The notes under the pieces were generated by a model. The model made no database searches. It was given only the letters and a program-made list of their open reading frames with translations, and was not told the DNA's origin. DNA of 64,000 nt from Bacteroidota bacterium (lineage in GTDB: Bacteria; Bacteroidota; Bacteroidia; Chitinophagales; Chitinophagaceae), in the NCBI GenBank assembly GCA_026391455.1, contig JAPLEH010000062.1, forward strand, positions 1 through 64,000. The letters are read 5' to 3'. The first letter of the stretch is position 1. The number at the start of each line of letters is the position of its first letter. Below, piece by piece: positions 139-62,698 of this stretch. The position numbers and the translations under genes are program-made.

Positions 139-400
139 TAACAACTTGCAGCCGGCTGTTGTTCCTGGCTGTTTACTTGCAGCTTGTAGCTAACAACTTG
201 CAGCCGGCTGTTAAAGGCTCATGGCTGATAGCTCGCGGCTCGAAGCTGGCTGTTGTTGCTGGCTGTTTACTTGCAGCTTGTAGCTAACAACTTGCAGCCG
301 GCTGTTAAAGGCTCATGGCTGATAGCTCACGGCTCGAAGCTGGCTGTTTACTTGCAGCTTGTAGCTAACAACTTGCAGCCGGCTGTTTGAAGCTCATGGC
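139..400. repeat. Degenerate heptamer array with a 93-bp higher-order unit
   Basis: The stretch is built from 7-bp words of the type AGCTTGT, AGCTAAC, AACTTGC, AGCCGGC, GGCTCAT, GGCTGAT, AGCTCGC, GGCTCGA. On top of this lies a longer unit: the segment beginning TTGCAGCTTGTAGCTAACAA occurs at 178, 271 and 352, so spacings are 93 and 81 bp, the second copy lacking one 12-bp piece. Related words occur near 42.0 and 55.4 kb. No open reading frame of note lies inside. It fills the gap between the transposase fragment and the fucosidase gene. Confidence 0.85.
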
Positions 401-418
401 ATACTTCCGGTTCTGATC

Positions 419-447
419 TTTGAAAAAGCCAAACAATTGTATCTTTC
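419..447 (+). promoter_or_regulatory. Possible promoter of the fucosidase gene
   Basis: TTTG at 419-422 is followed after 17 bp by TATCTTTC at 440-447, close to the Bacteroidota pattern TTTG-N19/20-TAnnTTTG. The start codon lies 18 bp further on. The spacing is slightly short and the final base of the -7 element differs. Confidence 0.35.
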
Positions 448-465
448 CTTACCAACTATACGATT

Positions 466-1794
466 ATGAAATGCTTACTACTTTCCTTCGTACTATTTTG
501 TGTTAGCATCGCCAATGGGCAAACCGCTTATACGCCTGCACCGGAAAATATTCAGGCACGAATACAATTCCAGGATGATAAATTCGGACTCTTCGTACAT
601 TGGGGACTCAGCAGTGTGTTGGGCAACGGAGAATGGGTAATGCAAAACCGGAAGATCCGTAAAGAAGATTACCAGCGATACCTGCGGGTATTAAATCCCA
701 TCGATTTTGATGCAGAAAAATGGGTGCTTGCCGCCAAAAATGCGGGCATGAATTATATCGTGTTCATCACCCGCCATCATGATGGATTTTCCAACTGGAA
801 TACTTCCTTTAGCGATTGGAAGATCACCAACACCCCTTACGGCAAAGACCCGTTGAAAATGCTAGCTGCTGCCTGTAAGAAACATAATATCAAACTCGGC
901 TTATATTATTCCACCCTCGATTGGTACCGGGATGATTATCCCTATGAGACAGGACGCACCGGTCAGCACAGCGGCCGTACTGCCAAAAGCAATTATGCTT
1001 CTTATCTGACCTTTATGAAAAATCAACTGACTGAATTACTCACGAAATACGGGCCTATCATGAGTATTTGGCTGGATGGTCATTGGGACCAGACCAATCC
1101 CGAAGGTGATGCAGACCGCAGCTCGCGGATTGATTGGAAATACAATGAGCTCTACGGGCTGATACACCAGTTGCAACCGGCTTGTATCATTGGAAACAAT
1201 CATCATCTCGATCCCATTGCCGGTGAAGATTTTCAGATGTTTGAAAGAGATCTGCCCGGTGAAAATAAAGCAGGCATGAGTTTTCAACAACCCTCTACTG
1301 CCATGCCACTGGAGACCTGCGAAACCATGAATGATTCATGGGGGTATAGTGTAACCGACCGCAATTATAAATCGGTGAAAACGATCATTCACCTGCTGGT
1401 AAATGCGGCCGGAAGAAATGCCAATCTCTTGCTGAATGTGGGGCCGATGCCCAATGGTGAAATACAACCTGAATTTACCGATACCCTGGCTGCAGCCGGC
1501 AAGTGGTTGTCGAAATATGGAAACACTATCTATGGTACCCGGGGTAAACTGATGCCACCTCAACCCTGGGGAGTAGCCACCCGAAAAGACAAGGAAATAT
1601 TTGTACATCTGTTGCAACGCCCCGCGCAGCATAACATTGTACTGCCCGGCTTTACTGAAGCAGTGAGTGATGTGGAAATAATGGAAAGCGGAAAAAAATT
1701 AAAATGGAACAACTCATCCGAAGGTGTGGTTATTTTCCATGAATACCCGGAGAAGGAACCCATTGATCTGATCATTCGAATTACTGTAAAATAA
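466..1794 (+). CDS. Alpha-L-fucosidase, glycoside hydrolase family 29
   Basis: Secreted 442-residue enzyme expected to remove alpha-L-fucose from glycans. Residues 1-19 form a signal peptide ending ANGQ. The family fold is clear: FGLFVHWG (40-47), TRHHDGF (102-108), LGLYYSTLDW (144-153) and the motif SIWLDGHWDQ (200-209), whose Asp204 sits where GH29 enzymes carry the nucleophile. A short C-terminal beta domain (about 355-442) follows the barrel. It stands alone on the plus strand with no sugar transporter beside it, so the substrate is not indicated. The name fucosidase is by family; some GH29 relatives act on other sugars. Confidence 0.88.
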   Translation: MKCLLLSFVLFCVSIANGQTAYTPAPENIQARIQFQDDKFGLFVHWGLSSVLGNGEWVMQNRKIRKEDYQRYLRVLNPIDFDAEKWVLAAKNAGMNYIVFITRHHDGFSNWNTSFSDWKITNTPYGKDPLKMLAAACKKHNIKLGLYYSTLDWYRDDYPYETGRTGQHSGRTAKSNYASYLTFMKNQLTELLTKYGPIMSIWLDGHWDQTNPEGDADRSSRIDWKYNELYGLIHQLQPACIIGNNHHLDPIAGEDFQMFERDLPGENKAGMSFQQPSTAMPLETCETMNDSWGYSVTDRNYKSVKTIIHLLVNAAGRNANLLLNVGPMPNGEIQPEFTDTLAAAGKWLSKYGNTIYGTRGKLMPPQPWGVATRKDKEIFVHLLQRPAQHNIVLPGFTEAVSDVEIMESGKKLKWNNSSEGVVIFHEYPEKEPIDLIIRITVK

Positions 1795-1839
1795 GCAAGA
1801 GGACAAACAATTACCGGAATAGGCCGTGCGTATTACCCG

Positions 1840-2421
1840 CTATCCGGCAGGCCGCATATACCTGAAATGATACCCCCTCCCGATCTGTCTTTCAAATTTC
1901 CAAGCCTTCTTTAGTATACGTCCGGCGATATATAATCCGGCTGCCACCCCCATAGCACCCCAGGAAAACTGAACGGTATTGGTGACAAAACTGTTGAAGA
2001 TATTGAGCGCCCCATAGCCTATTCCCAATATCCGGAATAACAATCCGCTTTTCACCCAAAAAAAATGTACATGTCCGGCTCCCCGGTTTACACGGAATTC
2101 ACCGTCTTTATAATCGATCTTGATCCCCGGGCCCGGCAGGTACATTACATCACGAAGTGCATAGCGGGCAATTGGCAAATACTGGGTATCGCTCCCCATG
2201 AGGTAATAATGCACAATAGATGATTGCAGGTAGAAAGAATCATTATGTATTTTCTTGATGATGCCGGCCTGCCAGGGTCCATATTTTTCGCGGAAAGCGA
2301 TATACGAGCCGGTATGATAGGTCGCTATCGTTTTGGTTCGCTTTTTCAGTATAAAGAAATCATGCTGAGCCCAGGAAGAAGAGTTTAACAGGAGCAGAAG
2401 AATAAACAGTGAATTTCGCAT
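1840..2421 (-). CDS. Hypothetical exported membrane protein
   Basis: I do not recognise this 193-residue protein. I chose the ATG at 2421 because it places a clean signal sequence (MRNSLFILLLLL, then SSWAQ) at the N-terminus; an in-frame ATG at 2460 would add 13 unlikely residues. After a charged, Tyr-rich soluble part (about 25-110) come two hydrophobic stretches near the C-terminus (LLFRILGIGYGAL and GAMGVAAGLYIAG) and a basic tail. Proteins of this general build, a short periplasmic part followed by a membrane hairpin, are common among unknowns in this phylum. It faces the fucosidase gene tail to tail with a 45-bp gap and no visible terminator. Confidence 0.6.
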   Translation of the reverse strand: MRNSLFILLLLLNSSSWAQHDFFILKKRTKTIATYHTGSYIAFREKYGPWQAGIIKKIHNDSFYLQSSIVHYYLMGSDTQYLPIARYALRDVMYLPGPGIKIDYKDGEFRVNRGAGHVHFFWVKSGLLFRILGIGYGALNIFNSFVTNTVQFSWGAMGVAAGLYIAGRILKKAWKFERQIGRGYHFRYMRPAG

Positions 2422-2869
2422 GTTTATAAAGCTAACCAAATGATGACCGTTAATTCTCAAAACTTACGTTAAAATAAAGTCGCGAATTCAAGAGAGCATC
2501 GCAACCTTTCCGGTTGACAAGCAGGATTCAGGTGCCGTTTACAAATTAAGGCTGGGGGTTCATTCTTATCTAAACTTCAGTTTGAGTAAAATGCATTCTA
2601 TTACCTTTCAAACCGACATCCTGATAATCCGATAAAAAGTATTTTAAGATAAACAGTACCATATACAATTATACCATTTGGCAAACCACATTACCGTAAA
2701 AAGCTGTGGTGGAATTGTAATTTTTCAGTCAAAAAACAAGTGTATATGCGGCCAACTTTACATCACAAACCTGAGGTTTACATACCTGCTTCGTTGATGC
2801 TGATTAAAAAACTTAACATTGGGAATATTAAATTAATATTATTTTTACATTACTAAACTATTAATAAAT
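2422..2869. other. AT-rich intergenic region, no gene seen
   Basis: About 450 bp separate two divergent genes. I find no open reading frame with a plausible start, no tRNA-like fold and no terminator. It should hold the promoters of the genes at 2421 (minus) and 2870 (plus). TAACATTG at about 2811 is a weak candidate -7 element for the plus-strand gene. Confidence 0.5.
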
Positions 2870-3127
2870 ATGAACGATACAACATTAACCACTTCTGAAT
2901 CACTGTCTAAGAAGGATTTACAAAGACTTGTATTTGAAAAATTAGCCGGTGCGCTTGGAGAATACAAGGAAAATCTGAAGGAAAAAAAATTTACCCGCAA
3001 TCTGAAAAAAGCCAGCAAGCTTTTTGCTGCGGATATTGCACGCACCATCGGCAAAAAATCAAAAATTAAGCAAGCGAAGAAGGCCGATAAGCATGCAATT
3101 GCAAAGACGGAGACTGCGGAAGAGTAG
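2870..3127 (+). CDS. Small lysine-rich cytoplasmic protein, unknown
   Basis: 85 residues, no signal peptide or membrane segment. The middle (about 14-60) is predicted mostly helical with many Lys (LSKKDLQRLVFEKL, then NLKKASKLFAADIARTIGKK), and the tail is a Lys/Ala/Glu-rich low-complexity stretch ending AEE. It starts at a good ATG after an AT-rich leader and is followed directly by a strong hairpin terminator, so it looks like a real single-gene unit. The composition would suit a nucleic-acid-binding protein, but no family is recognised and no function is claimed. Confidence 0.6.
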   Translation: MNDTTLTTSESLSKKDLQRLVFEKLAGALGEYKENLKEKKFTRNLKKASKLFAADIARTIGKKSKIKQAKKADKHAIAKTETAEE

Positions 3128-3176
3128 ACTAGTTTATACCCCCCTTTAATTTACTGACCCATCACATATTAAATGA

Positions 3177-3226
3177 ACCGGAATACTCGGGATAATTATC
3201 CCTGGCATTCCGGTCTTTTATTTTTC
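3177..3226 (+). terminator. Rho-independent terminator after the Lys-rich small gene
   Basis: ACCGGAAT (3177-3184) pairs with ATTCCGGT (3207-3214) and the loop contains a second palindrome GGGATAATTATCCC. A run of T follows at 3215-3226. It ends the 85-residue gene on the plus strand. Confidence 0.75.
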
Positions 3227-3264
3227 AAAGGGAAGGTGTAAACGCCTGGTTATGATTCCGACTT

Positions 3265-3669
3265 TTAATTCACCTTAAATATTTCCACCTTTTCTTCCAT
3301 CCGGTACTGTACGGAAAAGGACTGTGTGAAAGAAAAAGATTTTCCGCTGATGGTAAAGCTTAAAGTACTGATATCGATCTCATCCTTTAAGATTTTATAC
3401 CGCCGCATACGGGTATTGGCAGGGATCCTTTCTTCAAATAAAAGGTTTTTGTTATCATCGAATATCCGCAGCTTGTCTGCTTCCGGAAAACCATCCAGTT
3501 GAATATCAAACAACAACATATTTTCTTCTGTACCTGCAAATCTGATCATATTTCCCGTTTCCGGAATACGCAGAGATGTATGTTGCTGACCTATTCCCAC
3601 ACTGCTGGTTGTTACGAACAATACCACAGCTAAAAACGCTTTCATTAATAATTGTTTGCCTGATTTCAT
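3265..3669 (-). CDS. Small secreted protein, unknown
   Basis: 134 residues from the ATG at 3669 (an upstream in-frame start at 3720 would add 17 residues before the signal peptide and is unlikely). MKSGKQLLMKAFLAVVLF forms the signal, with cleavage near SSVGIGQ. The mature part of about 100 residues alternates hydrophobic and polar residues as in a small beta-sandwich (MLLFDIQLDGFPEADKLRIF, ISTLSFTISGKSFSF). No catalytic or metal motif is visible. Its neighbour downstream is convergent; upstream lies a long empty region. Confidence 0.55.
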   Translation of the reverse strand: MKSGKQLLMKAFLAVVLFVTTSSVGIGQQHTSLRIPETGNMIRFAGTEENMLLFDIQLDGFPEADKLRIFDDNKNLLFEERIPANTRMRRYKILKDEIDISTLSFTISGKSFSFTQSFSVQYRMEEKVEIFKVN

Positions 3670-4377
3670 ATTATGAGGTTTTGTTGACTTATTTAGAAAG
3701 CACAAAGATCCTCTTTGCATATTACCGTATGATGACCTCCAGATTAAACTGTTGTAACCACATTATTGTATTCCTATTAAACATTCCCTTTGTGATTTTT
3801 ATAACAGATTTACTTAAAGTGGTGCTGTCCACATTTTTTTCAGTAACCTGCCGTTGACCTGACAACTGCAAATCTCCACAGTTGAAAATGCAGCACTGCA
3901 ACTTCTTATTATCAATGATAATGAAGTTTATTCCGTATTATTTTAAAAATAAAACTTGTAACCAATAGCACATTGTATATGACCAAGGGGATCAGATTTC
4001 AAGGATACATCTGAGAATTTGACTTTCAGAAACAGAAACATATTTCCGTTGCGTTCAAAAAGGCAGTTTGTTGAAAAGGAAACGGTTAAATTTTGGCAAG
4101 CTGATTCTGGTCTGTTAACTAATTATGCATAGTGACATTTATTGCTTATACAAGAATGATTAATAGAACTTCCTGGGGGAAAACTGGGATTTTATTAATC
4201 AGTTAGTTCGCTGTATATGGTCGCTTTATAGTTTTACATCAGGTTATCTTAAAGTGATAAATTCACAAACAGGCGCACACAACCTTCTACCTGCTACATT
4301 GATCGCATAAGTGTAAAACAAAGCCGTCAAATTGATCTCACACCGGGTTAATTATTATATAGACTCTAGAAAGAGGC
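3670..4377. other. Long AT-rich gap, no gene seen
   Basis: About 700 bp without a convincing gene. One frame between 3730 and 3857 on the plus strand (starting MMTSRLNCCNHI) is hydrophobic but overlaps the upstream region of the minus-strand gene and has no supporting context, so I take it as chance. No tRNA, terminator or repeat array was found here. Confidence 0.5.
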
Positions 4378-5871: not shown

Positions 5872-6047
5872 GGCTATTTGTTTTGGTAATACCCGAAATT
5901 AAATGAAGCATCGTATGTTGTATACTACCGCGGCTGCATTTAACAGTATTTAAACAATAACCATGAGACACAAAATGAACGGAATTCCATTCTGCTTTAC
6001 CGAAATTTTTAAGGATATTACTTCACACCAATAGCCTGGTGTCCTGA

Positions 6048-6959: not shown

Positions 6960-7111
6960 TGTGATATATTTTGATTGATAAAACGAACTCGTATATATAC
7001 CGTAAATATACTGCCAGAATAGGGATGTTTGCTATATATCCTGATTTAATTTACTTGTAATTTTCCGGGATAAAACTGAATAATTAAAATATCAATTGTA
7101 TCAAATCTAAC

Positions 7112-10708: not shown

Positions 10709-10729
10709 TTAATAGACCAGCACATAGTT

Positions 10730-11115: not shown

Positions 11116-11160
11116 AAAATATTACTATTTTTCACTGTTCTGGATAGCACTACTTACCGT

Positions 11161-13700: not shown

Positions 13701-13730
13701 CAGCCCCGGTGTACACCGGGGCTGTTTCTT
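13701..13730 (+). terminator. Terminator after the GEVED/T9SS gene
   Basis: AGCCCCGGTG and CACCGGGGCT form a near-perfect stem (inside 13701-13722), followed by GTTTCTT. It lies 33 bp past the stop at 13668 and next to the heptamer array that ends clpB. Confidence 0.75.
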
Positions 13731-13772
13731 ATTCACCATTGACAACTCACTATTGACTATTGACTATTCACT
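13731..13772. repeat. Six exact-register heptamers overlapping the clpB 3' end
   Basis: Read on the plus strand the units are ATTCACC, ATTGACA, ACTCACT, ATTGACT, ATTGACT, ATTCACT, in perfect 7-bp register. The clpB stop codon (TAG on the minus strand, 13764-13766) lies inside, so the last residues of ClpB (Ser-Glu) are encoded by the array. Confidence 0.8.
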
Positions 13773-16385
13773 CTTCCCCGCTTTCTCTGCAATCTCATTC
13801 CGGAAGATCACCACATTGTCAAATACATCCACTACAACCGGTTTGGTCTTATCAATATCACCTGCGAGAATACGCTTGGATAGCTGGTTCACAATCTCTT
13901 TTTGTATCAGGCGCTTCAAGGGTCTTGCACCAAACTGCGGATCAAAACCCTGGTCGGCGAGGAACTCCAGAGCATAATCGCTGAACTGTAATTGTATGCC
14001 GCTCTCTGCCACCAGCTTCTTCAGTCCATTGAGCTGAATCTTCACAATACCCATAATCTCTTTTTTGAGCAGGGGTTGGAACATGATAATCTCATCCACC
14101 CGGTTGAGAAATTCAGGGCGTATTGTTTGCCGTAATAAATTCATCACTTCTACGCGGGCTTTTTCCGCTGCGATTTCAATATCGCGTTCTTTTACCACGC
14201 CTTCAAATGCATCCATAATGAGATGGCTGCCGATATTACTGGTCATAATGATGATGGTGTTTTTAAAGTTCACCATGCGGCCTTTGTTATCGGTCAGTCT
14301 TCCATCGTCGAGCACCTGCAGCATTACATTCCATACATCGGGGTGCGCCTTCTCAATTTCATCGAGTAGTACCACACTATACGGTTTGCGGCGTACGGCT
14401 TCGGTTAGTTGACCACCTTCATCATAGCCCACATAGCCGGGAGGTGCTCCCACCAATCTGGATACGGTGTGCTTTTCCTGATACTCGCTCATATCGATAC
14501 GCGTCATCATGCTCTCATCATCGAATAAATATTCGGCGAGCGCTTTGGCCAATTCTGTTTTACCCACACCGGTAGTCCCGAGAAAGATGAATGAACCGAT
14601 GGGTTTTTTCGGGTCCTGCAGTCCGGCCCGGCTCCGGCGGATGGCATCGGCTACGGCGGTGATCGCTTCTTCCTGTCCTACTACCCGTTCATGCAAATGC
14701 GCTTCGAGATGGAGCAATTTTTCTTTATCACTCTGTAGCATTTTGTTAACGGGTATGCCGGTGGCTTTGGCAACACTTTCTGCAATATCTTCTGCATCCA
14801 CTTCTTCTTTCAGCAATCTTTTTTCGGTACTGCTGCTGAGTTCCTGTGTAAGCTGATTGATCAGTGTTTCCTGTTCTTTGATTTTTCCATAGCGGATCTC
14901 CGCTACTTTACCATAATCACCTTCGCGCTCTGCACGCTCCGCTTCCTGCTTCAGATTATCTATACCCGCTTTGGCATTTTGAATCTTTTCCACCATTTCT
15001 TTTTCCTGACTCCATTTCGCTTTGTAGGTATCGCGTGATACGGCCAGGTTGGCAATCTCGGTATTGAGTTCTTTCAGTTTTACTTCATCGTCTTCCCGTT
15101 TAATGGCCTCGCGTTCGATCTCCAGTTGGCGAATCTGACGTTCGAGCGTGTCCAGTTCTTCGGGCATACTGTTCATTTCGAGGCGTAGCTTGGCTGCGCT
15201 TTCATCTATGAGGTCGATGGCTTTATCCGGGAGAAAACGATCGGTGATATACCGGCTGGATAATTCCACTGCAGCAATAATGGCTTCGTCTTTTATGCGA
15301 ACATGGTGGTGTGTTTCATACCGGTCTTTCAATCCGCGCAGAATGGATATGGCATCTTCCACAGATGGTTCATCAATCATTACTTTCTGAAAACGTCTTT
15401 CGAGTGCTTTATCTTTTTCAAAAAATTTCTGGTATTCATTGAGCGTGGTGGCTCCTACTGCGCGCAGATCGCCTTTGGCCAATGCGGGTTTTAAAATATT
15501 CGCCGCATCCATGGCTCCTTCTCCACCACCGGCTCCCACGAGGGTGTGTATCTCATCGATAAATAAAATGATCTCACCGTCGCTGGTGCTTACTTCTTTT
15601 ACCACGGCTTTCAATCTTTCTTCAAATTCGCCTTTGTATTTGGCACCGGCAATGAGCAAGCCCATATCCAGCGCATAGATGATCTTTGATTTCAGGTTTT
15701 CGGGTACATCGCCATTTACAATACGATGGGCAATGCCTTCCGCTATTGCGGTTTTACCTACACCCGGTTCTCCTACCAGTATCGGGTTGTTCTTGGTTCT
15801 GCGGGAAAGAATATGAAGGGTTCTGCGAATTTCCTCATCGCGGCCAATCACCGGATCGAGCTTACCCTGGCGAGCGAGTTCATTCAGGTTCTTGGCATAT
15901 TTATTTAATGCATTGTATTCCTGCGATTGTGTTTGAGAGGTAATGGTCTCTCCTTTGCGTAATTCTTTGATGGCAGCGATGAGTCCTTTTTCAGTGAGGC
16001 CTGCATCTTTCAACAATTTAGCGGTGGAATCATTACCCTGTACGATAGCCAGCAGTAAGTGTTCGGTTGTTACAAACTCGTCTTTAAATTCTTTCAGGGC
16101 TGCTCCGGCACGCAATACCACGCTGTTGGCCTCCCGGCTGATCTGCTGGGCAGGTTCGCCGGAGGATTTGGGGAGTTTTTGCAGGAGTTCATCCAGTTTG
16201 GAATCCACCAGATTGACCGTCACGTTGTTCTTCTTCAACAGGTAATCTACGGGAGAATCCTGCTGCTCCAGCAACGCCTTCAGTAAATGTTCCGTCTCAA
16301 TGTTCGGACTCTTGTCATTGAATGCGATCTGCTGTGCCTGCTGAAAGGCCTCGGCCGCTTTGATAGTGAAGTTTCCTAAGTTCAT
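13764..16385 (-). CDS. clpB: ATP-dependent disaggregase ClpB
   Basis: 873 residues, the full length of the family. Order of parts: Clp N-domain (1-145), first AAA+ module with Walker [14 protein letters not shown] (about 205) and the LFIDEIH Walker B, the coiled-coil M-domain (about 400-525, rich in Glu/Lys) that is specific to ClpB, and the second AAA+ module with [13 protein letters not shown] (about 608) and arginine-finger region. With DnaK/DnaJ it pulls polypeptides out of aggregates. The C-terminus [10 protein letters not shown] ends inside a heptamer repeat array. Octamer repeats sit right in front of the start codon. No HrcA or sigma-32 type heat-shock site was recognised. Confidence 0.95.
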
Positions 16386-16386: not shown

Positions 16387-16425
16387 TTGATAATTTGCTA
16401 ATTCGATAATTGGATAATTAGATAA
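16387..16425. repeat. Octamer array next to the clpB start codon
   Basis: On the plus strand: TTGATAA, TTTGCTAA, TTCGATAA, TTGGATAA, TTAGATAA. Four full 8-bp units stand in exact register beside one 7-bp unit. The array begins two bases from the clpB start codon (ATG on the minus strand, 16383-16385), so it lies in the clpB leader or promoter region. Confidence 0.7.
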
Positions 16426-16542
16426 TGTTAAAATGCGGATTAATACACCATTTTGCTGGTCGTTCATTTTCCCATTTCTATATTGTTCTTATTTTCACAT
16501 TTTAACTATCAAATTCGTGTCCAATACTAAATTTCCGAAACT

Positions 16543-41992: not shown

Positions 41993-42110
41993 GAGAAGCT
42001 GCAAGCTGTGAGCTGTGAGCTGCGACCTGCCTGCCCCTTTGGGGCGAGCTATCAGCCAAGAGCATCAAACAGACGGCTGCAAGCTTTAAGCTACAAGCTG
42101 CAAGAAAACA
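41992..42110. repeat. Heptamer half of composite repeat element A
   Basis: Starts at the deoxynucleoside kinase stop codon with AGCTGCA, AGCTGTG, AGCTGTG, AGCTGCG, ACCTGCC words, then a stretch with GGGGCGAGCTATCAGCC and TTAAGCTACAAGCTGCAAG. In reverse complement it matches the heptamer half of the element at 55393-55588, including the block ending CTCGCCCC(A)AGGGG, but is shorter by one long unit. Confidence 0.8.
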
Positions 42111-42140
42111 GCCAGCAACCAGTAACCGCGAACTGTATTC

Positions 42141-42288
42141 AACCTCTTGAACTTCTTAAACCTATGGAACCTATGGAACCTCTTAAACCTATGGAACCTC
42201 TGAAACCTATGCAACCTATGTAACCTATAAAACCTCTTGAACTTCTTAAACCTTTTGAACCTCTTGAACCTATGGAAACTATGGAACC
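42141..42288. repeat. Nonamer array, 16 units in exact register (element A)
   Basis: Units such as AACCTCTTG, AACTTCTTA, AACCTATGG, AACCTCTGA, AACCTATGC, AACCTATGT follow one another from 42141 at exactly 9 bp without insertion or deletion. Constant part AACCT; variable positions 6, 8 and 9. Nine being a multiple of three, every frame reads as a tripeptide repeat, which is not evidence of coding. The array ends next to the -7 element of the MFS gene. Confidence 0.9.
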
Positions 42289-42290
42289 AA

Positions 42291-42298
42291 TATCTTTG
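42291..42298 (+). promoter_or_regulatory. -7 promoter element of the MFS gene
   Basis: TATCTTTG, a match to TAnnTTTG, lies directly after the nonamer array and only 5 bp before the ATG at 42304. The nearest TTG (42264-42266, inside the array) is 24 bp away, a little far for a -33 element. Confidence 0.5.
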
Positions 42299-49575: not shown

Positions 49576-49965
49576 ATGGATCCATTCCTTGTACTGGCAA
49601 TAATTGGAGGCCTACTCATTATAGGCTATGGCATCTTCCGGATGTTTAGTATCTCAAAAAGACCGTCAACATCCGGAGATGATTATTCCCCTGCCGATAT
49701 TAAAAATCAATCGGATTACACGGATCAGACCCTGTATTATCATAATAACTGGAATAATGAATCGGGGCAGCATGCTGCACAACAGCAGCAACAATCAGAA
49801 GCGTATTCGGAAGGTTCGGGTCATGCCGATGACGGTGGCGGCAGCACCCATGCAGACAGCCTGGACAGTTCATCCTTTTCAGACAGTTCTGGTTTTTCCG
49901 AAAGTTCCTCTTCTTCTGACAGTACATCCTCTTCCGACAGTTCATCGTCCGGCTCTACTGATTAA
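49576..49965 (+). CDS. Small membrane protein with Ser/Asp low-complexity tail
   Basis: 129 residues. One TM at the N-terminus (about 5-23, LVLAIIGGLLIIGYGIFRMF), then a hydrophilic region with a Gln-rich spot (HAAQQQQQSEA) and a tail (about 85-129) almost wholly Ser, Asp and Gly with repeated SSSSDS, like the dipeptide stretches of surface proteins. No signal peptidase site is needed; the tail is either cytoplasmic or periplasmic depending on topology. It begins 14 bp after the MBL gene and is likely co-transcribed. Function unknown. Confidence 0.55.
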   Translation: MDPFLVLAIIGGLLIIGYGIFRMFSISKRPSTSGDDYSPADIKNQSDYTDQTLYYHNNWNNESGQHAAQQQQQSEAYSEGSGHADDGGGSTHADSLDSSSFSDSSGFSESSSSSDSTSSSDSSSSGSTD

Positions 49966-49992
49966 CTATGACTGGTTGCTGTCTCCCTTTTC

Positions 49993-53498: not shown

Positions 53499-53513
53499 AC
53501 GTCTAACGGTTAT

Positions 53514-53556
53514 AAAATAATAGCCCGGCGTTTGAACGCCGGGCTATTATTTTATG
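53514..53556. terminator. Bidirectional terminator between gcvP and the DUF6600-like gene
   Basis: TAGCCCGGCGTT and AACGCCGGGCTA form a perfect 12-bp stem around TG, with an A run on the left and TTATTTT on the right, so it can serve both strands. Confidence 0.85.
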
Positions 53557-53581
53557 ATGCTACTCATCTTTTTTTTCAACA

Positions 53582-55111: not shown

Positions 55112-55293
55112 GGTCGTGCATTTTTAGTAATAAATAGATTCATACGATAATTTTTTGCAGCCACTACCCTTCCACTGTATGGCGGTGGTGGTTCATTTGT
55201 ATTACATCCGTATGACGCTATTTCTGTGCCATGAGGAGGCAACGATTAATCCGGATTGGTGTTTTAGCAAAATATTGGGTCAGATGTTAAAGG
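55112..55293. other. Intergenic stretch before composite repeat B, no gene seen
   Basis: The 180 bp upstream of the DUF6600-like gene show no frame or fold that I can support. It should hold the promoter of that gene (minus strand). The rest of the gap up to 55636 is repeat element B. Confidence 0.4.
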
Positions 55294-55392
55294 AGGTTGA
55301 AGAGGTTACATAGGTTTCATAGGTTGAAGAGGTTCCATAGGTTGAAGAGGTTTAAGAGGTTCCATAGGTTTAAGAAGTTCAAGAGGTTGAAT
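55294..55392. repeat. Nonamer array, 11 units in exact register (element B)
   Basis: Units AGGTTGAAG, AGGTTACAT, AGGTTTCAT, AGGTTCCAT, AGGTTTAAG, AAGTTCAAG follow in exact 9-bp register. It is the inverted relative of the array at 42141-42288; the last 27 bp and the junction beyond are identical to the reverse complement of that element. Confidence 0.9.
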
Positions 55393-55588
55393 ACAGTTCG
55401 CGGCTGCTGGTTTCTGGCTGTTTGAAGCTCGTGGCTGATAGCTCGCGGCTCGTAGCTGGCTGTTGTCACTGGCTGTTTACTTGCAGCTTGTAGCTAGCAA
55501 CTTACAGCCCGCTGTTTGATGCTCGTGGCTGATAGCTCGCCCCACAGGGGTAAACAGCTCGAAGCTGGCTGTTGTCGCTGGCTGTTTC
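55393..55588. repeat. Heptamer half of composite repeat element B
   Basis: Begins ACAGTTCGCGG, shared with element A, then AGCTCGT, GGCTGAT, AGCTCGC, GGCTCGT, AGCTGGC and similar heptamers, plus the block TTTGATGCTCGTGGCTGATA and GCTCGCCCC. It also shares the words of the array at 139-400. It ends 9 bp before the terminator stem of the lipoprotein gene at 55637. Confidence 0.85.
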
Positions 55589-55616
55589 AAAAAAAAGGCC
55601 GCCCTAAAGCAGCCTT
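55589..55616 (-). terminator. Terminator of the carboxypeptidase-regulatory-like lipoprotein gene
   Basis: AAGGC (55595-55599) and GCCTT (55612-55616) with an inner GC-rich stem; on the minus strand an eight-T run follows. It is 20 bp past the stop at 55637. Confidence 0.7.
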
Positions 55617-55636
55617 ATATTTATTTAATTATAATG

Positions 55637-57466: not shown

Positions 57467-57584
57467 AATTTGCTTTTTTAATAATAAAAAATCACTTGCA
57501 AATACTGGCGGGATACTTCCGGCAATTGAAGCGGATGACTATACTTAAAATGAAAAAGAGGTTTCAGCTCACCAAATATAAAAA

Positions 57585-57616
57585 AAAATGTGGAAATGTG
57601 AAAATGTGGAGATGTG
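57585..57616. repeat. Octamer array, four units
   Basis: AAAATGTG, GAAATGTG, AAAATGTG, GAGATGTG in exact 8-bp register, ending 5 bp before the stem of the terminator of the superoxide dismutase gene. Confidence 0.75.
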
Positions 57617-57621
57617 AATAT

Positions 57622-57667
57622 AAAAAAAGGGCAGGGTTCATATGTAAAAAATGAAACCCTGCCCTTT
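57622..57667 (-). terminator. Terminator of the superoxide dismutase gene
   Basis: AAAGGGCAGGGTTCAT pairs with ATGAAACCCTGCCCTTT around ATGTAAAAA, with a T run on the minus strand. Placed about 33 bp past the stop codon. Confidence 0.8.
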
Positions 57668-57675
57668 CACGAAAA

Positions 57676-57710
57676 CTATTAGCTATTAATTTTTATCTAT
57701 TAACTGTTCA
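57676..57710. repeat. Five heptamers overlapping the 3' end of the superoxide dismutase gene
   Basis: CTATTAG, CTATTAA, TTTTTAT, CTATTAA, CTGTTCA in 7-bp register on the plus strand. The stop codon of the gene (minus strand, 57700-57702) and its last two sense codons (Asn-Ser) lie inside. Confidence 0.65.
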
Positions 57711-58467
57711 TCATTCTTTTCTCCACCACATCCCAGTCCACTATTTTCCACCAGGCATTGATATAGTCGGGGCGTTTATTCTGGTATTTCAGGTAATAGG
57801 CATGTTCCCATACATCGAGTCCCAGCAGGGGAATGCCCTTGAGATCGCTGATATCCATGAGGGGATTGTCCTGGTTGGGCGTAGAACCCACTACCAGTTT
57901 GCCTTCTTTATTTTTTAGGAGCCAGGCCCAGCCGCTTCCAAAACGATTTTTACCGGCATCGGTGAATTGTGATTTGAATGTATCAATGGAGCCAAAATCT
58001 TTAACCAATGCAGCCGACAATTGGGGTGAAGGATTGTTGCTGTCGCCAGGGGCCCGCATGCTTTTCCAGAAAAATTCGTGGTTATAATGACCACCTCCGT
58101 TGTTACGCATCTTCACCGAATATTTGGAAATAGATTGGAGGAGAGAGACCAGCGAAACTTTGGTGATGTCCACTTTTTCTGCTGCTACCGCATCCGCAAG
58201 ATTTTTTGCATACGTGGCGGCATGTTTACTGTAATGAATCTCCATGGTCATGGCATCAATCGCAGGTTCCAGTCCGGCATAGGCATACAGAAGCGGTTGC
58301 TGGTTGTAAGGTATTTCTTCTGCTCCCGCTGCAAATCCTTCGCTATGGTGTTCCGTTGCATGGGCAGCCAGCGCCGGTAATGCGGTAAGCGACAGACCAG
58401 CGGCTATGCCAGCCTGACCGGTCGTTTTCAGAAACTGGCGGCGATTTTGCTTGTTTTCATTTGACAT
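57700..58467 (-). CDS. Tat-exported superoxide dismutase, Mn type
   Basis: 255 residues from ATG 58467 (a TTG at 58476 is less likely). Converts superoxide to oxygen and peroxide. The N-terminus has a twin-arginine signal (RRQFLKTTGQAGIAAGLSL, cleavage near LAAHA), so the enzyme works outside the cytoplasm. Metal ligands by motif: His78 (EIHYSKH), His130 (GGHYNHEFFW), Asp218 and His222 (DVWEHAYY). GGGHYN instead of AAQVWN, and NQDNPL rather than NAGTP, indicate the Mn (or cambialistic) type. The last two codons lie in a heptamer array. Confidence 0.9.
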   Translation of the reverse strand: MSNENKQNRRQFLKTTGQAGIAAGLSLTALPALAAHATEHHSEGFAAGAEEIPYNQQPLLYAYAGLEPAIDAMTMEIHYSKHAATYAKNLADAVAAEKVDITKVSLVSLLQSISKYSVKMRNNGGGHYNHEFFWKSMRAPGDSNNPSPQLSAALVKDFGSIDTFKSQFTDAGKNRFGSGWAWLLKNKEGKLVVGSTPNQDNPLMDISDLKGIPLLGLDVWEHAYYLKYQNKRPDYINAWWKIVDWDVVEKRMMNS

Positions 58468-58591
58468 ATTGAACAATTTAATGTGATAAAAATCCTGCTT
58501 AAAATTACTCTTTTAATGCAAGAAGATGACCGGAAATGCTAAGAGGTTGTAAACAATTGTCAGAAGGAGGAAAATAGTTCTTTCCGCCTTG

Positions 58592-58599
58592 TATCTTCG
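58592..58599 (+). promoter_or_regulatory. Possible -7 element of the J-protein gene
   Basis: TATCTTCG, one base off TAnnTTTG, ends 6 bp before the ATG at 58606. No TTTG at the right distance upstream. Confidence 0.35.
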
Positions 58600-58605
58600 C
58601 GCCGC

Positions 58606-59256
58606 ATGGAATTCAAGGATTATTACAGCATATTGGAACTGGCCCCCTCTGCCACTTCCACCGACATTAAAAAGGCCTATCGCCGGCTCGCATTGGTCCA
58701 TCATCCTGATAAGAATCCGAATAACCCTGAAGCGGCCGCACAATTTGCTGCCATCAAAGAAGCCTATGAAGTGCTCATGGACCCGGCCCGGAAAGAATAT
58801 TACCTGCAACAACGTTGGTACAGACAGAGTATGGGCAGCCGCAAGTCTCAACCCATTGTTACCCCGGCCAATATCCTGAAAGAAGCAATAGAGCTGGAAC
58901 GATACGTTTCCAAACTGGATATTTTCCGGATGGATAAAGCCGGATTGCAACAATATATTCTGGATCTGCTTTCAGAAGATACGGTGGAAAAGCTGCAACA
59001 ATTTCACGACCCGGAAGCAATGCGCCAGATCCAATCGATCGTACTTCGTGCCGCCCGCCCACTCCCATTCGCCTACCTGACACCCGTGGCACAACGATTA
59101 CAAAGCCTTTGCAAAGACGATCCGGAAGGACTGGATTCCATCAGAGGATTCATGCAACTACAACGGAAGACACAAACCCGTGAACGGTATACCTTGCTGA
59201 TTATTATGATCATCACATTTGTACTCTGCCTGGTCATTTATTTCGCGGGCCGATAG
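58606..59256 (+). CDS. J-domain protein with C-terminal membrane anchor
   Basis: 216 residues. J domain at 1-65 (MEFKDYYSILELAPSATSTD, HHPDKNP containing the HPD that stimulates DnaK). It lacks the Gly/Phe and zinc regions of DnaJ. The middle is helical and charged. The last 20 residues (about 194-213, LLIIMIITFVLCLVIYF) form one TM near the very end, so the J domain should be on the cytoplasmic side of the membrane, a tail-anchored layout. Partner is DnaK; client unknown. The ABC-F gene starts 14 bp later. Confidence 0.8.
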   Translation: MEFKDYYSILELAPSATSTDIKKAYRRLALVHHPDKNPNNPEAAAQFAAIKEAYEVLMDPARKEYYLQQRWYRQSMGSRKSQPIVTPANILKEAIELERYVSKLDIFRMDKAGLQQYILDLLSEDTVEKLQQFHDPEAMRQIQSIVLRAARPLPFAYLTPVAQRLQSLCKDDPEGLDSIRGFMQLQRKTQTRERYTLLIIMIITFVLCLVIYFAGR

Positions 59257-59258
59257 AG

Positions 59259-59266
59259 TATATTTG
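59259..59266 (+). promoter_or_regulatory. Possible -7 element of the ABC-F gene
   Basis: TATATTTG fits TAnnTTTG and ends 4 bp before the ATG at 59271, inside the short gap after the J-protein gene. No -33 element at the proper distance, and the two genes may simply be one operon. Confidence 0.35.
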
Positions 59267-59270
59267 CGGT

Positions 59271-61175
59271 ATGCACTATGTTTCAGCAGAAGGATTAAGC
59301 AAGAGTTACGGGATTCAACCGCTTTTTGAGAAAATTTCTTTTCATATTGAAGAAGGGGACAAAATCGCCCTGGTAGCCCGTAATGGTACCGGCAAATCCA
59401 CCTTATTAAAAATCCTGGCGGGTAAAGAAACACCCGATGAAGGAAAAATATGGATCAGCAAAGATGTGGATGTGGTATTGCTGGAACAAGAACCTTCCTT
59501 TGCCGAAGACAAATCCATCCTGGACAATATCTTTTTTCATGAACACCCCCTCATCCGCGCCATTAAAGAATACGAAGCGGTCAGTGAAGGTGGAGATCCC
59601 GACAAACTGAATGCCGCCATTATTAAAATGGATGACCTCGGCGCCTGGGATTTTGATGCTAAAGTAAAACAGGTGCTCGGTAAACTAAATATTCATCAGC
59701 TTCATCAGCCGGTGAAATCATTAAGCGGAGGACAACGCAAACGGGTGGCCCTCGCCAAAACACTTATTGATATCGGTTTCGAACATAAACATGTATTACT
59801 GATCATGGATGAACCCACCAACCACCTGGATGTGGAAATGGTGGAATGGCTCGAACATTATTTCGATAAAGAAAATGTAACCTTGTTGCTGGTAACGCAC
59901 GACCGCTATTTTCTCGATTCCACCTGCACAGAAATATGGGAGATGGCTCCCGGCCCCGGCGGAGAGAGCAGTTATATCTATACACATAAAGGCGATTACC
60001 AGTATTTTCTGGAACAAAAAGCAGCCCGCCTTGAAAATGAACAAGCAAGTATCGATAAAGCCCGAAATACTTATCGCCGCGAACTGGAATGGATGCGCAA
60101 ACAACCCCGTGCCCGCACCACCAAAAGCAAAAGCCGGCAGGATAATTTTTATTCTGTTGAGAAAAAAGCGAAACAACTGGTGGTGGAAGAGCAATTGCAA
60201 CTCGATATGAAAATGAACCGGCTGGGTGGGAAAGTGGCCGAGTTGAAAAAATTGTACAAAAGTTATGGCGACAAAGTGATCCTCAAAGGGTTTGATTATA
60301 CTTTCAAAAAGGGTGAACGCGTGGGCATCGCCGGAAAAAACGGTACCGGTAAATCCACGTTTCTAAATATCCTGCAGGGGCTTGAAATGCCGGACAGCGG
60401 AAAAGTGAATATTGGTGATACCGTCATCTTTGGTAATTACTCGCAACAGGGTCTGGTAGTGAAAGAAGATATGCGGGTGATCGAATTCGTAAAAGACATT
60501 GCAGAGAATTTTCCATTGGCCAGTGGCGGCTCAATGAGCGCGGCACAATTCTTACAATTATTTTTATTTGAACCCGACAAACAATATACCTATATCAGCA
60601 AACTGAGTGGTGGCGAACGAAGAAGACTGCATTTATTATCCATCCTTTTCCGCAACCCCAACTTCCTGATACTGGATGAGCCCACCAATGACCTGGACCT
60701 TCCCACGTTGGGTGTGCTGGAAAATTTCTTAACCGAATTTCAGGGATGCCTGCTCATCGTATCGCACGACCGTTATTTTATGGACCGGCTGGTAGACCAT
60801 CTCTTTGTATTTGAAGGCGAGGGGGTAATCCGGGATTTTCCGGGCAATTATTCTCAATACCGGGCAGAAGAAGAACGAAACAAAAAGGCGGAACCTGTTG
60901 CAGATCAAAAAACAAAACCAGACGTCCCCTCACCCGTTGCTGAACAGCCGGCTTCTCCCAAAAGACAACTGAGCTTTAAAGAAAAAAGGGAATTTGAACT
61001 GCTGGAAAAAGAAATACCGGCATTGACCAAAGAGAAAGAAGTAGTAACGGCCAAATTAAATGATGGCAGCACCCCCTACGAAGAGCTCCAGCAACTTTCT
61101 GTTCGTATTGGTGAAATCACCCGATTACTGGATGAAAAAGAATTGCGCTGGCTGGAATTGAGCGAATTACAGTAA
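59271..61175 (+). CDS. ABC-F family ATP-binding protein (ribosome-associated type)
   Basis: 634 residues with two ABC domains and no membrane part. First: Walker A ARNGTGKSTLLKIL (about 36), signature LSGGQRKRVALAK, Walker B LLIMDEPTNHLD. Second: AGKNGTGKSTFLNIL (about 350), signature LSGGERRRLHLL, Walker B LILDEPTNDLD. Between them is the long linker arm with EWMRKQPRARTTKSKSRQ. The C-terminal tail (about 540-634) is charged and coiled-coil like. Members control translation states on the ribosome (EttA-, Uup-like); this is closest to Uup in plan, with a C-terminal coiled coil. Subtype by layout only. Confidence 0.9.
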   Translation: MHYVSAEGLSKSYGIQPLFEKISFHIEEGDKIALVARNGTGKSTLLKILAGKETPDEGKIWISKDVDVVLLEQEPSFAEDKSILDNIFFHEHPLIRAIKEYEAVSEGGDPDKLNAAIIKMDDLGAWDFDAKVKQVLGKLNIHQLHQPVKSLSGGQRKRVALAKTLIDIGFEHKHVLLIMDEPTNHLDVEMVEWLEHYFDKENVTLLLVTHDRYFLDSTCTEIWEMAPGPGGESSYIYTHKGDYQYFLEQKAARLENEQASIDKARNTYRRELEWMRKQPRARTTKSKSRQDNFYSVEKKAKQLVVEEQLQLDMKMNRLGGKVAELKKLYKSYGDKVILKGFDYTFKKGERVGIAGKNGTGKSTFLNILQGLEMPDSGKVNIGDTVIFGNYSQQGLVVKEDMRVIEFVKDIAENFPLASGGSMSAAQFLQLFLFEPDKQYTYISKLSGGERRRLHLLSILFRNPNFLILDEPTNDLDLPTLGVLENFLTEFQGCLLIVSHDRYFMDRLVDHLFVFEGEGVIRDFPGNYSQYRAEEERNKKAEPVADQKTKPDVPSPVAEQPASPKRQLSFKEKREFELLEKEIPALTKEKEVVTAKLNDGSTPYEELQQLSVRIGEITRLLDEKELRWLELSELQ

Positions 61176-61199
61176 TGGGCTTCTTCTTTTGTTTTTTTG

Positions 61200-61207
61200 T
61201 ATCTTTT
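61200..61207 (+). promoter_or_regulatory. Possible -7 element of the gene at 61230
   Basis: TATCTTTT, 22 bp before the ATG. A T-rich tract lies upstream. Weak. Confidence 0.25.
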
Positions 61208-61229
61208 AGGCCAAACCATTTGCACAACC

Positions 61230-61640
61230 ATGTTACGTTTACTACTGCTTACCGCCATTTTCTGTACGGGACATGCCGCCCATAGCACCAATCTTCCACC
61301 GGTAAAATCGATCACCATCATCGTGGATGCCAGACAGGGTATCTTTATAGGCCGTGATACCGTTGATACGGAAACCCTTCCCGCAATATTAGCTGAACGC
61401 CTCTGGAAAAGCTACCTGGGTACCGGCAAAATGTATGACCGGATAAAAGTTGTCACCCGGGGCGAAGTACTGATGGGTACTCGTGGCTCCGTGTTTGATG
61501 CCATACAGCAAGGACAGCAGCAGGCACTGAAAAAACTCTGCCTGCAATTACATAAGAAGTTGTTTGAAGAACTGAACCCCTCCCAGCAGCAACGGATACG
61601 GCAGAAATACAAAGTACTATTTCAGGAAACATTTATATAA
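61230..61640 (+). CDS. Secreted protein with ExbD-like periplasmic domain
   Basis: 136 residues from ATG 61230. Signal peptide MLRLLLLTAIFCTGHAAHST. The mature part reads as a mixed alpha-beta domain: VKSITIIVDARQGIFIGRDT, LPAILAERLW, DRIKVVTRGEVLMGTRGSVF, then two helices. The order of strands (I-x-V-D/A-x-x-G, then L-x-x-x-L, then V-x-x-x-G) is that of the ExbD/TolR periplasmic domain, but here there is no N-terminal cytoplasmic tail with the key Asp. So it would be a free, secreted relative, or an unrelated look-alike. Low certainty. Confidence 0.45.
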   Translation: MLRLLLLTAIFCTGHAAHSTNLPPVKSITIIVDARQGIFIGRDTVDTETLPAILAERLWKSYLGTGKMYDRIKVVTRGEVLMGTRGSVFDAIQQGQQQALKKLCLQLHKKLFEELNPSQQQRIRQKYKVLFQETFI

Positions 61641-61658
61641 TTTTTCAATCTACCGGTC

Positions 61659-62426
61659 ATGTATATGCGAATATTTTGCCTGGCATTTTGTTTAGTGCTG
61701 CTTAGCACACCCCCGGCGGGTGCACAGATCGTGAATATCGAACGGGCCCGGATGCAGTCAGACACCACCGGGTGGATGGGCGGTGCCGGTATGGCCTATA
61801 CGCTGATCCAAAATACCCAGAAAATATCGATCACCGACCTGGAAGCCCACCTGCAATATAAAACCAGCAATGACAAGGGGCTATGGCTCATACTGGGCAA
61901 TTACAGTTTTCTGAAAGCGGGCAAGAATAAACTGGTATCGAATGGTTTTTTTCATGTACGGTATAATTACAAGGTCAACGACTGGCTTCGCTGGGAAGTA
62001 TTTGGCCAGTATCAGAATAACAGCATCACCCAAATCGATTCGCGGGTGTTGGCTGGTACGGGGCCCCGCTTCAAACTCGTAAAGAATAAATTTTTACGGC
62101 TGTATGCAGCCACCCTGATCATGTTTGAAAGTGAAAAAGAACGCACCAATCCCGTTGTATCGCACAAAGATATCCGCAGCAGCAGCTACCTGTCTTTTAC
62201 CTGGACCCCCAGGGATAATCTGGAATTGATCAGTACGACGTTCATTCAACCCTTATTAAAAAAATGGAGTGATTACCGGTTATTAAATCAGGCCAGTTTG
62301 CGGGTGAAGGCCACCAAACACTTCAGCCTGTCGGTAAAATGGAATTACCTGCACGACCGCTTTCCGGCTGGTACGGCACCACGTACCACGTATACATTTG
62401 CTACCGGGGTGGATTATGATTTTTGA
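61659..62426 (+). CDS. DUF481-like outer-membrane protein
   Basis: 255 residues, start ATG 61659 (or 61665). Signal (1-22, PPAGAQ). The rest is a barrel of about 12 strands with alternating pattern (GLWLILGNYSFLKAGKNKLV, FFHVRYNYKVNDWLRWEVF, FLRLYAATLIMFESE, SSSYLSFTWTPRDNLELIST, FSLSVKWNYLHDRFPAGT) ending TFATGVDYDF with a terminal Phe. The layout fits DUF481 (salt-induced outer membrane protein) by eye. It follows the gene at 61230 by 18 bp and may share an operon. Confidence 0.65.
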   Translation: MYMRIFCLAFCLVLLSTPPAGAQIVNIERARMQSDTTGWMGGAGMAYTLIQNTQKISITDLEAHLQYKTSNDKGLWLILGNYSFLKAGKNKLVSNGFFHVRYNYKVNDWLRWEVFGQYQNNSITQIDSRVLAGTGPRFKLVKNKFLRLYAATLIMFESEKERTNPVVSHKDIRSSSYLSFTWTPRDNLELISTTFIQPLLKKWSDYRLLNQASLRVKATKHFSLSVKWNYLHDRFPAGTAPRTTYTFATGVDYDF

Positions 62427-62498
62427 CCTGAGTGTATTCAATGTTCTCACATATGCAACACTTCACTTATATTTTCAAAAATCCCCTAATCACATTTT

Positions 62499-62631
62499 GC
62501 GTAGAGTTGAAACACATAGATTGCATAGGTAGATAGAAAGCATAGATTACATTGATTGATTTCAAGTGGCTTTCAAAATATTCGGCGTAGAATTGAAACA
62601 CATAGATAGGATAGGTAGATAGACAGCATAG
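62499..62631. repeat. Pair of 47-bp direct repeats with nonamer-like content
   Basis: GCGTAGAGTTGAAACACATA, continuing to GCATAG, at 62499-62545 recurs with about four changes at 62585-62631, 86 bp on. Inside are words of the type nCATAGnn at about 9-bp steps, reminiscent of the nonamer arrays at 42.1 and 55.3 kb. Only two copies, so this is not a CRISPR array. Confidence 0.7.
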
Positions 62632-62638
62632 CCCACTC

Positions 62639-62698
62639 CCGATCTTCCGGACTTCCTGTCTTTCGGTCTTTCCGTCTTTCCGACTTCCCGACATTCGT
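62639..62698. repeat. Pyrimidine-rich short tandem array (7-8 bp)
   Basis: GATCTTCC, GGACTTCC, TGTCTTTC, GGTCTTTC, CGTCTTTC, CGACTTCC, CGACATTC follow one another at about 8 bp, with the core (A/G)(T/A)CTTTC or CTTCC. Strand bias is strong (pyrimidines on the plus strand). Confidence 0.7.

Follow-up and report, generated by a model that had tools for sequence, protein, structure and literature searches.

Short tandem repeats in intergenic DNA have been known in cyanobacteria for decades, and the short tandemly repeated repetitive sequences (STRRs) of heterocystous cyanobacteria comprise several families, known with units of 7 bp only, dispersed through intergenic DNA. The subject here is a set of degenerate tandem arrays with units of 7, 8 and 9 bp in a 64,000-nucleotide stretch of a Bacteroidota genome (the window), which is part of contig C64 of a draft genome (G000; 5.5 Mb, 74 contigs, estimated completeness 100%). 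Arrays in the window were called at an ungapped autocorrelation score of at least 14; arrays were also called, at lags 3-13, in a genome sample of 1,631,668 bases (1.63 Mb, 30% of the genome) made up of contigs picked regardless of content. The best reading is that the arrays are dispersed repeats of the STRR or long simple sequence repeat (LSSR) type, with turnover of sites, homogenisation at the scale of the unit and a bias towards the 3' flanks of genes; what is new is the presence of many degenerate families of 7, 8 and 9 bp within one genome. As in the STRRs, several families are dispersed and intergenic, and tandem words of about 7 bp recur at many intergenic sites (100 of 206 non-coding arrays have period 7). 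Unlike the STRRs, they have other words, more unit lengths and a Bacteroidota host, and they are not STRRs in the strict sense; the cyanobacterial words CCCCAGT and CCCCAAT gave no doublets in the 1.63-Mb sample. A first interpretation of the window from its letters (the sequence-only reading) had proposed this likeness with different words, and it holds.

Heptamer repeats were described by Rehm et al. 2015 (PMC4692102) as (GGGANTN)n in Xanthomonas and GGGGA(C/T)T in Nostoc. According to that paper they are mostly intergenic (89% and 93% in two species) with few between divergent genes, form 70-75 inverted pairs per genome, vary widely in length and sequence between related species and, by its own account, have no accepted origin or function. 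The present arrays resemble these heptamers (PMC4692102) in being dispersed and intergenic, in combining conserved and variable unit positions and in the occurrence of inverted pairs. They differ from them in that about nine families of 7, 8 and 9 bp share one genome, in that the five best-defined words lack a fixed G-tract, in the module order of a composite element, and in the absence of site sharing with a congener, which is a more distant one. A G-quadruplex heptamer does not describe them, with no fixed GGG in the five best words and 3 GGGANTN doublets in 1.63 Mb.

TAACTGA direct repeats occur in five Bacteroidetes (MacGregor 2015, PMC4679880), where some regions hold other heptamer repeats too and where the region in a close relative can be shorter and free of obvious repeats. 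The likeness lies in 7-bp tandem words, intergenic position and patchy distribution. TAACTGA, however, is described there as one exact word, placed in its main genome mostly just before start codons and with near-variants that seldom repeat, whereas the words found here are degenerate with free columns and are enriched at gene 3' ends; the 1.63-Mb sample holds no TAACTGA doublet, and gene 5' ends are also unenriched. LSSRs (Mrazek 2007, via PMC4679880 and PMC4692102) are defined as repeat runs longer than expected with units of 1-11 nt; their 7-bp units are over-represented, and slippage over a polymerase footprint has been proposed. Abundant 7-bp units are a common feature, although the LSSR definition may not count degenerate arrays. 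Prokaryotic satellites (PMC6749651) include (GATAGRA)n in Chloroflexus and a family derived from an octamer dimer in Mesorhizobium; they are described as derived from short repeats, species-restricted and scattered, with transposition suspected, in an analysis of units of at least 10 nt whose main text does not use the word Bacteroidetes. A miniature inverted-repeat transposable element (MITE) with a minisatellite is on record in Porphyromonas (PMC4596501). Besides PMC4679880, the literature search found no report of such arrays in Bacteroidota among the matches listed.

The evidence for families of words is genome-wide. Most arrays lie outside called open reading frames (ORFs; 206 of 264) and are not coding repeats; ORFs were called by a simple longest-ORF rule and cover 89% of the sample, leaving a non-coding fraction of 11.4%, and this rule causes some error at gene edges and misses some short genes. 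Period 7, 8 or 9 accounts for 193 of the 206 non-coding arrays (100, 51 and 42, with 7 more at period 10 and 6 elsewhere). The 58 arrays in coding DNA most commonly have periods 3, 6, 7, 9 and 12. One dinucleotide shuffle of an earlier subsample, the first 0.83 Mb, gave no non-coding array at lags 7-9. Array profiles were compared within each period, in every rotation and on either strand, with column-permuted profiles as control. A single cluster took in 40 of 42 nine-bp arrays, and 44 of 51 eight-bp arrays fell into two (33 and 11), the first of which consists of two related words. The nine largest clusters of 7-bp arrays number 18, 10, 8, 8, 6, 3, 3, 3 and 3, and 29 of 100 are singletons. 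Clustering at 8 and 9 bp thus links unit length to word, which independent slippage would not yield. The well-defined words are AACYTHTKN, TAATKWGM, AATGTGRR, AGWCSGRA and ATTSACH; looser ones are of AGCTNNN, AACTTAC, AATTCAT and GATGTAC type. The exact register claimed for the window extends to the genome, as 82 of 89 intergenic arrays of period 7-10 called by Tandem Repeats Finder (TRF) are free of indels and the indel/substitution ratio is 0.039, a low value that by itself needs no special process.

Within a family, variation is confined to particular columns. The 9-bp family, represented by 275 units from 40 arrays, keeps columns 1, 2, 3, 5 and 7 at A, A, C, T and T in 98-100% of units, with a within-array diversity of 0.00-0.03 compared to 0.47-0.68 in columns 4, 6, 8 and 9. 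Column 4 is mostly C/T, column 6 A/C/T (G 1%), and column 8 T/G (A and C at 1% each), while column 9 accepts every base but favours G and C; columns 6 and 8 are linked (mutual information 0.52 bits, null maximum 0.038). The variable columns are the same across a family's arrays in all nine families tested, which exceed a rotation null of 2000 that none reached in eight of them (AATTCAT, p=0.012). Units for this analysis come from arrays at least 62% like their consensus, a cut-off that favours well-kept arrays. The letters do vary, as the sequence-only reading noted, but the random drift it described is not the pattern found; its proposal of a common genome-wide process, as opposed to independent slippage, is supported by the period spectrum, the clustering and the shared fixed and free columns. 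Odd-palindrome centres as a cause of the free columns were discarded by reasoning alone, the families being inconsistent.

The units of nine-bp arrays look almost as if drawn independently from a pool common to the whole genome, except that neighbours are somewhat more alike. Across 15 such arrays of at least 6 units, unit likeness within arrays was 0.726 compared to 0.714 ± 0.0055 for units dealt at random (maximum 0.732 of 1000), and neighbouring units were more alike than when shuffled (0.765 versus 0.721, reached by 0 of 2000 shuffles). The arrays have little order in common, above chance and far below the prediction of block copying: in 61 nine-bp arrays with 432 units, 1 of 248 four-unit runs is common to two arrays (on average 0.24 after order shuffling and 3.6 under a Markov null), and the 14 shared three-unit runs lie below a first-order Markov null (mean 26). 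Block copying and slippage alone, when simulated, gave 11-50 four-unit runs in common, where 1 was observed, and a within-minus-between excess of 0.04-0.2, where 0.012 was observed. The best-fitting simulations drew 70% of units fresh from the pool and fit four-unit runs, likeness and the distinct-unit fraction; the simulation is simple, and its starting pool resembles the present one.

Placement was assessed in the 0.83-Mb subsample, which holds 99 arrays. Of 114 cases for gene 3' ends, 27 have an array edge no more than 10 bp away, where 2000 random placements give 14.8 ± 3.1 and at most 26; for 5' ends the figure is 12 of 84 (random 10.1 ± 2.7). The anchoring at gene ends claimed from the window therefore stands for 3' ends and fails for 5' ends. 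The whole stop codon lies inside 18 of the 35 arrays abutting a 3' end and, because several 7- and 8-bp words carry stop codons in sense orientation, arrays reaching a coding end can define the stop codon. Convergent regions carry 1.95 arrays per kb, tandem regions 1.11 and divergent regions 0.53. Sense-strand polarity in tandem regions, on small numbers, is seen for the 9-bp word (8:0), TAATNNGN (9:2) and ATTSACN (0 of 6 sense), and is weak or absent for AGCTNNN (6:5) and AATGTGNN (2:2).

Comparison with relatives points to turnover of sites. A protein search of a named collection placed ClpB nearest to Bacteroidota metagenome-assembled genomes, mostly named Chitinophagaceae or Chitinophagales (91% identity to L058, 89% to L057, 88% to L060, 94% over part to L089), with 90% to L059, named Sphingobacteriales; the list may omit records of the genome itself. 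A genus-wide protein search used a poor marker and served to find the near kin G001 and G008. In 632 kb of the congener G001 there are 55 non-coding arrays, none of which, at lags 3-13, has a period other than 7, 8 or 9, and 100-kb samples of other genomes gave 21 (G033), 9 (G030), 1 (G020, of period 14) and 1 (G036). From 175 reciprocal best hits, 66 orthologous junctions with G001 were obtained: 8 carry an array here, 8 in G001 and 1 in both (independence expects 0.97), in keeping with the expectation that arrays would be present or absent at orthologous sites. The sole doubly occupied junction, upstream of clpB, has an array of GATAATT type here and of TCTTTCGG type in G001 (contig C34). 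The lengths of the junctions with an array here are, in bp for this genome and G001, 157/158 (clpB), 200/-1, 108/4, 311/80, 164/27, 176/83, 268/28 and 638/219; six of the seven other than clpB are 93-240 bp longer than in G001, and the last is probably missed coding sequence because it contains a 143-aa stop-free frame. As a separate observation, the region upstream of clpB is of near-equal length in the two genomes despite unrelated 8-bp array words.

Array words of G001 match those of this genome at above 0.9 in 20 of 55 arrays, compared to 4.3 for permuted columns. The corresponding matches are 1 of 21 in G033 (1.2 permuted), 0 of 8 in G030, 0 of 12 in Chitinophagales-like clpB loci (0.4) and 5 of 39 in other Bacteroidota clpB loci (1.3); the clpB loci of five of the best relatives in the named collection (L057-L061) showed no above-threshold array in the sequence examined. 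With sites not shared beyond chance and vocabulary partly shared, part of the words outlives the sites at this distance. The 9-bp word occurs in 3 of 198 genomes of the order, this one included (control 1), and, among 19 relatives, also in G004 of the same genus. The TAATNNGN word is patchy but real: it occurs in 15 of 296 genomes and the control in 7 (in most cases as a single match), and a genome other than this one has as many as 78 matches. Cross-phylum conservation of ATTSACN was dropped, since 20 of 296 genomes match and 21 match the reversed control pattern. A viral origin of the 9-bp word was also rejected: at least 120 viral contigs match, but 184 of the 250 matches listed are coding, and 0 of 750 viral units have ATG, GTT being commonest, so that the viral units differ from the present vocabulary and are judged unrelated. 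An even spread of periods, a lack of gene-end enrichment or conservation in distant relatives would each have told against the sequence-only reading, and none was encountered as far as tested.

Within the window, 8 arrays reach score 14, whereas 40 local dinucleotide shuffles average 0.1 and never have more than 1; the tandem arrays are thus real. Three of the eight places named by the sequence-only reading (139, 55393 and 57676) are periodic but below threshold and the others pass; its gene assignments (clpB, deoxynucleoside kinase, MFS, sod) were correct. The arrays, links and adjoining genes are as follows.

150..400, minus strand: 7-bp array of AGCTNNN/AACAGCC type, from TRF and sequence, below score 14 (best lag-7 score 12 at 139-400)
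13731..13776, plus strand: 7-bp array, family ATTSACH, running across the stop codon of clpB (minus-strand gene ending at 13764)
13764-16385, minus strand: clpB
16387..16435, plus strand: 8-bp array of TAATKWGM/GATAATT type, directly upstream of the clpB start codon
41360-41992: deoxynucleoside kinase gene
41996..42030, plus strand: 7-bp AGCTNNN array starting 3 bp past the deoxynucleoside kinase stop codon, composite module 1
42076..42127, plus strand: 7-bp array, AGCTGCA to AACCAGC, composite module 2
42127..42139, plus strand: link CGCGAACTGTATT between the 7-bp and 9-bp modules
42138..42291, plus strand: 9-bp array, family AACYTHTKN, ending 12 bp ahead of the MFS start codon
42304-43548: major facilitator superfamily (MFS) gene
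55293..55391, minus strand: 9-bp array, family AACYTHTKN, in the orientation opposite to 42138..42291
55390..55402, minus strand: link CGCGAACTGTATT, second composite copy
55403..55590, minus strand: 7-bp AGCTNNN/AACAGCC array, second composite copy, from TRF, below score 14 (best lag-7 score 8 at 55393-55590)
57586..57621, plus strand: 8-bp array, family AATGTGRR
57676..57708, plus strand: weak 7-bp array across the superoxide dismutase stop codon (minus-strand gene ending at 57700), score 10, below threshold
57700-58476, minus strand: Fe/Mn superoxide dismutase gene (sod)
62636..62692, minus strand: 8-bp array, family AGWCSGRA

Some families are joined in an ordered composite of a 7-bp AGC module, the link CGCGAACTGTATT and a 9-bp module. 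Two oppositely oriented copies of this composite lie in the window, at 41996-42291 and 55293-55590. The link has 37 matches in the genome at no more than one mismatch, compared to 2 for the reversed control. Thirty link loci were read: both modules are present at 23, an AACAGCC word upstream at 25, a GC-rich palindrome-like stretch downstream at 16 and an 8-bp TAAT pair within 450 bp upstream at 7; no constant composite ends were seen at these loci, and L176 and L177 are likely chance matches within genes. Separately, GC-rich palindromes (CCTGCCTTCGGCTACGCTCAGGCAG, CCTGCCTGCCGGCAGGCAGG, CCCGCCACGGCGGGC, GCCCCTTTGGGGC) interrupt arrays, inside or beside for example L155, L159, L164 and window positions 42033-42045. 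Several arrays adjoin a dispersed MITE-like element whose stem is GC-rich and whose ends, at loci that show both, are TGTCCGG/CCGGACA (L169, G000:C64 ~91.7 kb; L036, G000:C19 21877-22188; L236, G000:C63 ~132.7 kb).

Inverted pairing of arrays differs among the genomes. In G001, an inverted partner within the same intergenic region was counted for 34 of 52 arrays (mirror 0, direct 0, complement 7), only 5 of these 34 in convergent regions; this genome has 25 of 196 (mirror 15, complement 11, direct 59) and G033 2 of 21 (mirror 1, direct 2, complement 2). An earlier test on 95 arrays found 19% inverted and 20% direct partners at p<=0.05. A looser count that allowed both arms in one array (inverted versus mirror 42/51 of 196 here, 40/3 of 52 in G001 and 2/9 of 21 in G033) was superseded by the stricter one. 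The arms of a pair have the word in common but hardly the unit order. Arms as mirror copies (identity 0.78 aligned versus 0.73 with units shuffled; in 32 of 46 the aligned register scored higher than any shifted one) are not supported, because the aligned register had been picked as best. The folds of nine-bp arrays are less stable than those of mononucleotide shuffles, with a mean z of +0.7 on one strand and +1.5 on the other, and only the AGTCCGGA, GATGTAC and AGCTGCA families, each with few arrays, have a mean z below -1 on both strands.

A probability of about one half is assigned to the reading as dispersed non-coding STRR/LSSR-type word families (periods 7, 8 and 9, a few of 10) shaped by turnover, unit-scale copying and a 3'-flank bias. 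New arrays would arise at tolerated intergenic places, clear cases appearing as junctions some 90-240 bp longer than in the congener, and may then lengthen and shorten by slippage of whole units. A common vocabulary could be kept by copying of units between arrays, through ectopic template switching over short tracts or gene conversion, and selection against damage to coding sequence and promoters would leave arrays mostly at 3' flanks. Several points weigh against this. Exchange at the scale of the unit is inferred, with no instance observed, and annealing-based exchange would not obviously preserve spaced fixed columns (AAC.T.T..), which protein or RNA recognition would explain more directly. 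Three-unit runs common to arrays (14 of 293) exceed the within-array order shuffles (mean 5.45, maximum 13 of 300) and fall between the 30% and 70% simulation settings, and replacement in the simulation was random, 122 times for 61 arrays, and so did not strike each array once. Junctions with an array in G001 only (n=7) are not consistently longer there: four are longer (71 versus 31 here, 81 versus 53, 229 versus 194, 127 versus 97) and three shorter (74 versus 103, 107 versus 139, 135 versus 205), so that some arrays may remodel existing spacer. Further, G001 is distant (median 74% protein identity of paired genes), and short-term dynamics are thus not visible.

The main rival, considered unlikely, takes the unit as a recognition motif: the arrays would be tandem sites bound by proteins that recognise a particular DNA or RNA sequence, and the fixed columns would be held by purifying selection. 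The same fixed and free columns across each family's arrays, the restricted alphabets of 9-bp columns 6 and 8 with their linkage (0.52 bits) and the strand polarity of some families (9-bp, TAATNNGN, ATTSACN) agree with this, but single arrays look dispensable (1 of 66 junctions occupied in both species, with different words), about nine motifs would each require their own factor, and divergent regions, which hold promoters, have the lowest array density. It appears improbable that the arrays are carried by a composite mobile element, MITE-like or resembling repetitive extragenic palindromes (REPs), with a transposase acting in trans. While the ordered composite at 23 of 30 link loci and the 37 link matches favor such an element, as does Y1_Tnp in three of the six genomes of the genus searched (4 here, 5 in G001, 4 in G033; none in G030, G020 or G036), G030 has arrays without Y1_Tnp, long unit-order runs are not common to arrays, and no constant ends were seen at the link loci read. 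Three of the four Y1_Tnp genes here were read (G000:C32:98849-99293, C52:56266-56704, C19:191165-191780) and each has on its flanks repeated palindromes of its own that differ from the array words, which does not fit a REP-associated tyrosine transposase (RAYT) serving the arrays; the one on C19 has a short GTGAATG stretch ~400 bp upstream. RNA hairpins or terminator-like structures at gene flanks, with arms pairing in many registers, are quite improbable: the G001 pairs (34 of 52, with mirror and direct at 0) and the enrichment at 3' ends and in convergent regions here speak for them, and the scarcity of pairs here and in G033, the few convergent pairs of G001 (5 of 34), the less stable 9-bp folds and the scant sharing of unit order between arms speak against.

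Ordinary local slippage, in which a chance local seed grows and then decays, is given very little weight as a general account. It would produce the whole-unit register, the few odd indels and the likeness of neighbours, and at C19 19476, a single case, the congener's short junction ends in letters resembling the array word; yet it predicts unrelated words at each site with private variants, and 40 of 42 nine-bp arrays form one cluster, with a near-single unit pool and common fixed columns that speak against it. For the 29 of 100 singleton 7-bp arrays local slippage is possible; for the 8- and 9-bp families it is opposed by clustering and columns. Copying of a short RNA template by a reverse transcriptase, or in the manner of a diversity-generating retroelement, can be set aside almost entirely. 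Degenerate units on a fixed frame common to unlinked sites would suit such copying, but the draft genome has no match to RVT_1 (PF00078; other reverse transcriptase models were not searched). Template copying of this type, suggested by the sequence-only reading, would thus have to proceed without the usual enzyme. Among the six genomes only G033 and G020 have RVT_1, one each, and G020 has a single array in 100 kb. A more speculative and improbable formulation is that a process without a recognisable reverse transcriptase writes or rewrites intergenic words of 7-9 nt unit by unit, with some letters specified and others open; each array would then approximate an independent sample of a species-specific degenerate dictionary, and sister species would run the same process with partly other dictionaries, in G001 mostly as inverted pairs.

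Returning to the reading as dispersed word families with turnover, a single genome here offers many families with measurable rules: periods mostly 7-9, fixed and free columns, a near-common pool, little order and turnover of sites. For the 8- and 9-bp families these rules oppose both plain slippage from a local seed and plain block copying, and they make the origin of short intergenic repeats testable. The genus provides a test bed, with array-dense samples (this genome, G001 and G033) and nearly empty ones (G020 and G036, 100 kb each).

The window holds a few further features. Rfam covariance models gave 0 matches at gathering score in the window, and a GC-rich, terminator-like hairpin lies at 13701-13724 beside the array at the clpB 3' end. 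Inside the first 7-bp array, at 150-348, a 94-bp block is repeated 2.1 times at 97% (TRF), 94 being no multiple of 7. Two very similar stretches (GCGTAGARTTGAAACACATAGAT...AGGTAGATAGA..GCATAG), ~86 bp apart, occupy 62499-62634 directly ahead of the last 8-bp array, and an 18-bp tandem repeat of 4.6 copies lies at 49864-49946 within overlapping predicted ORFs.

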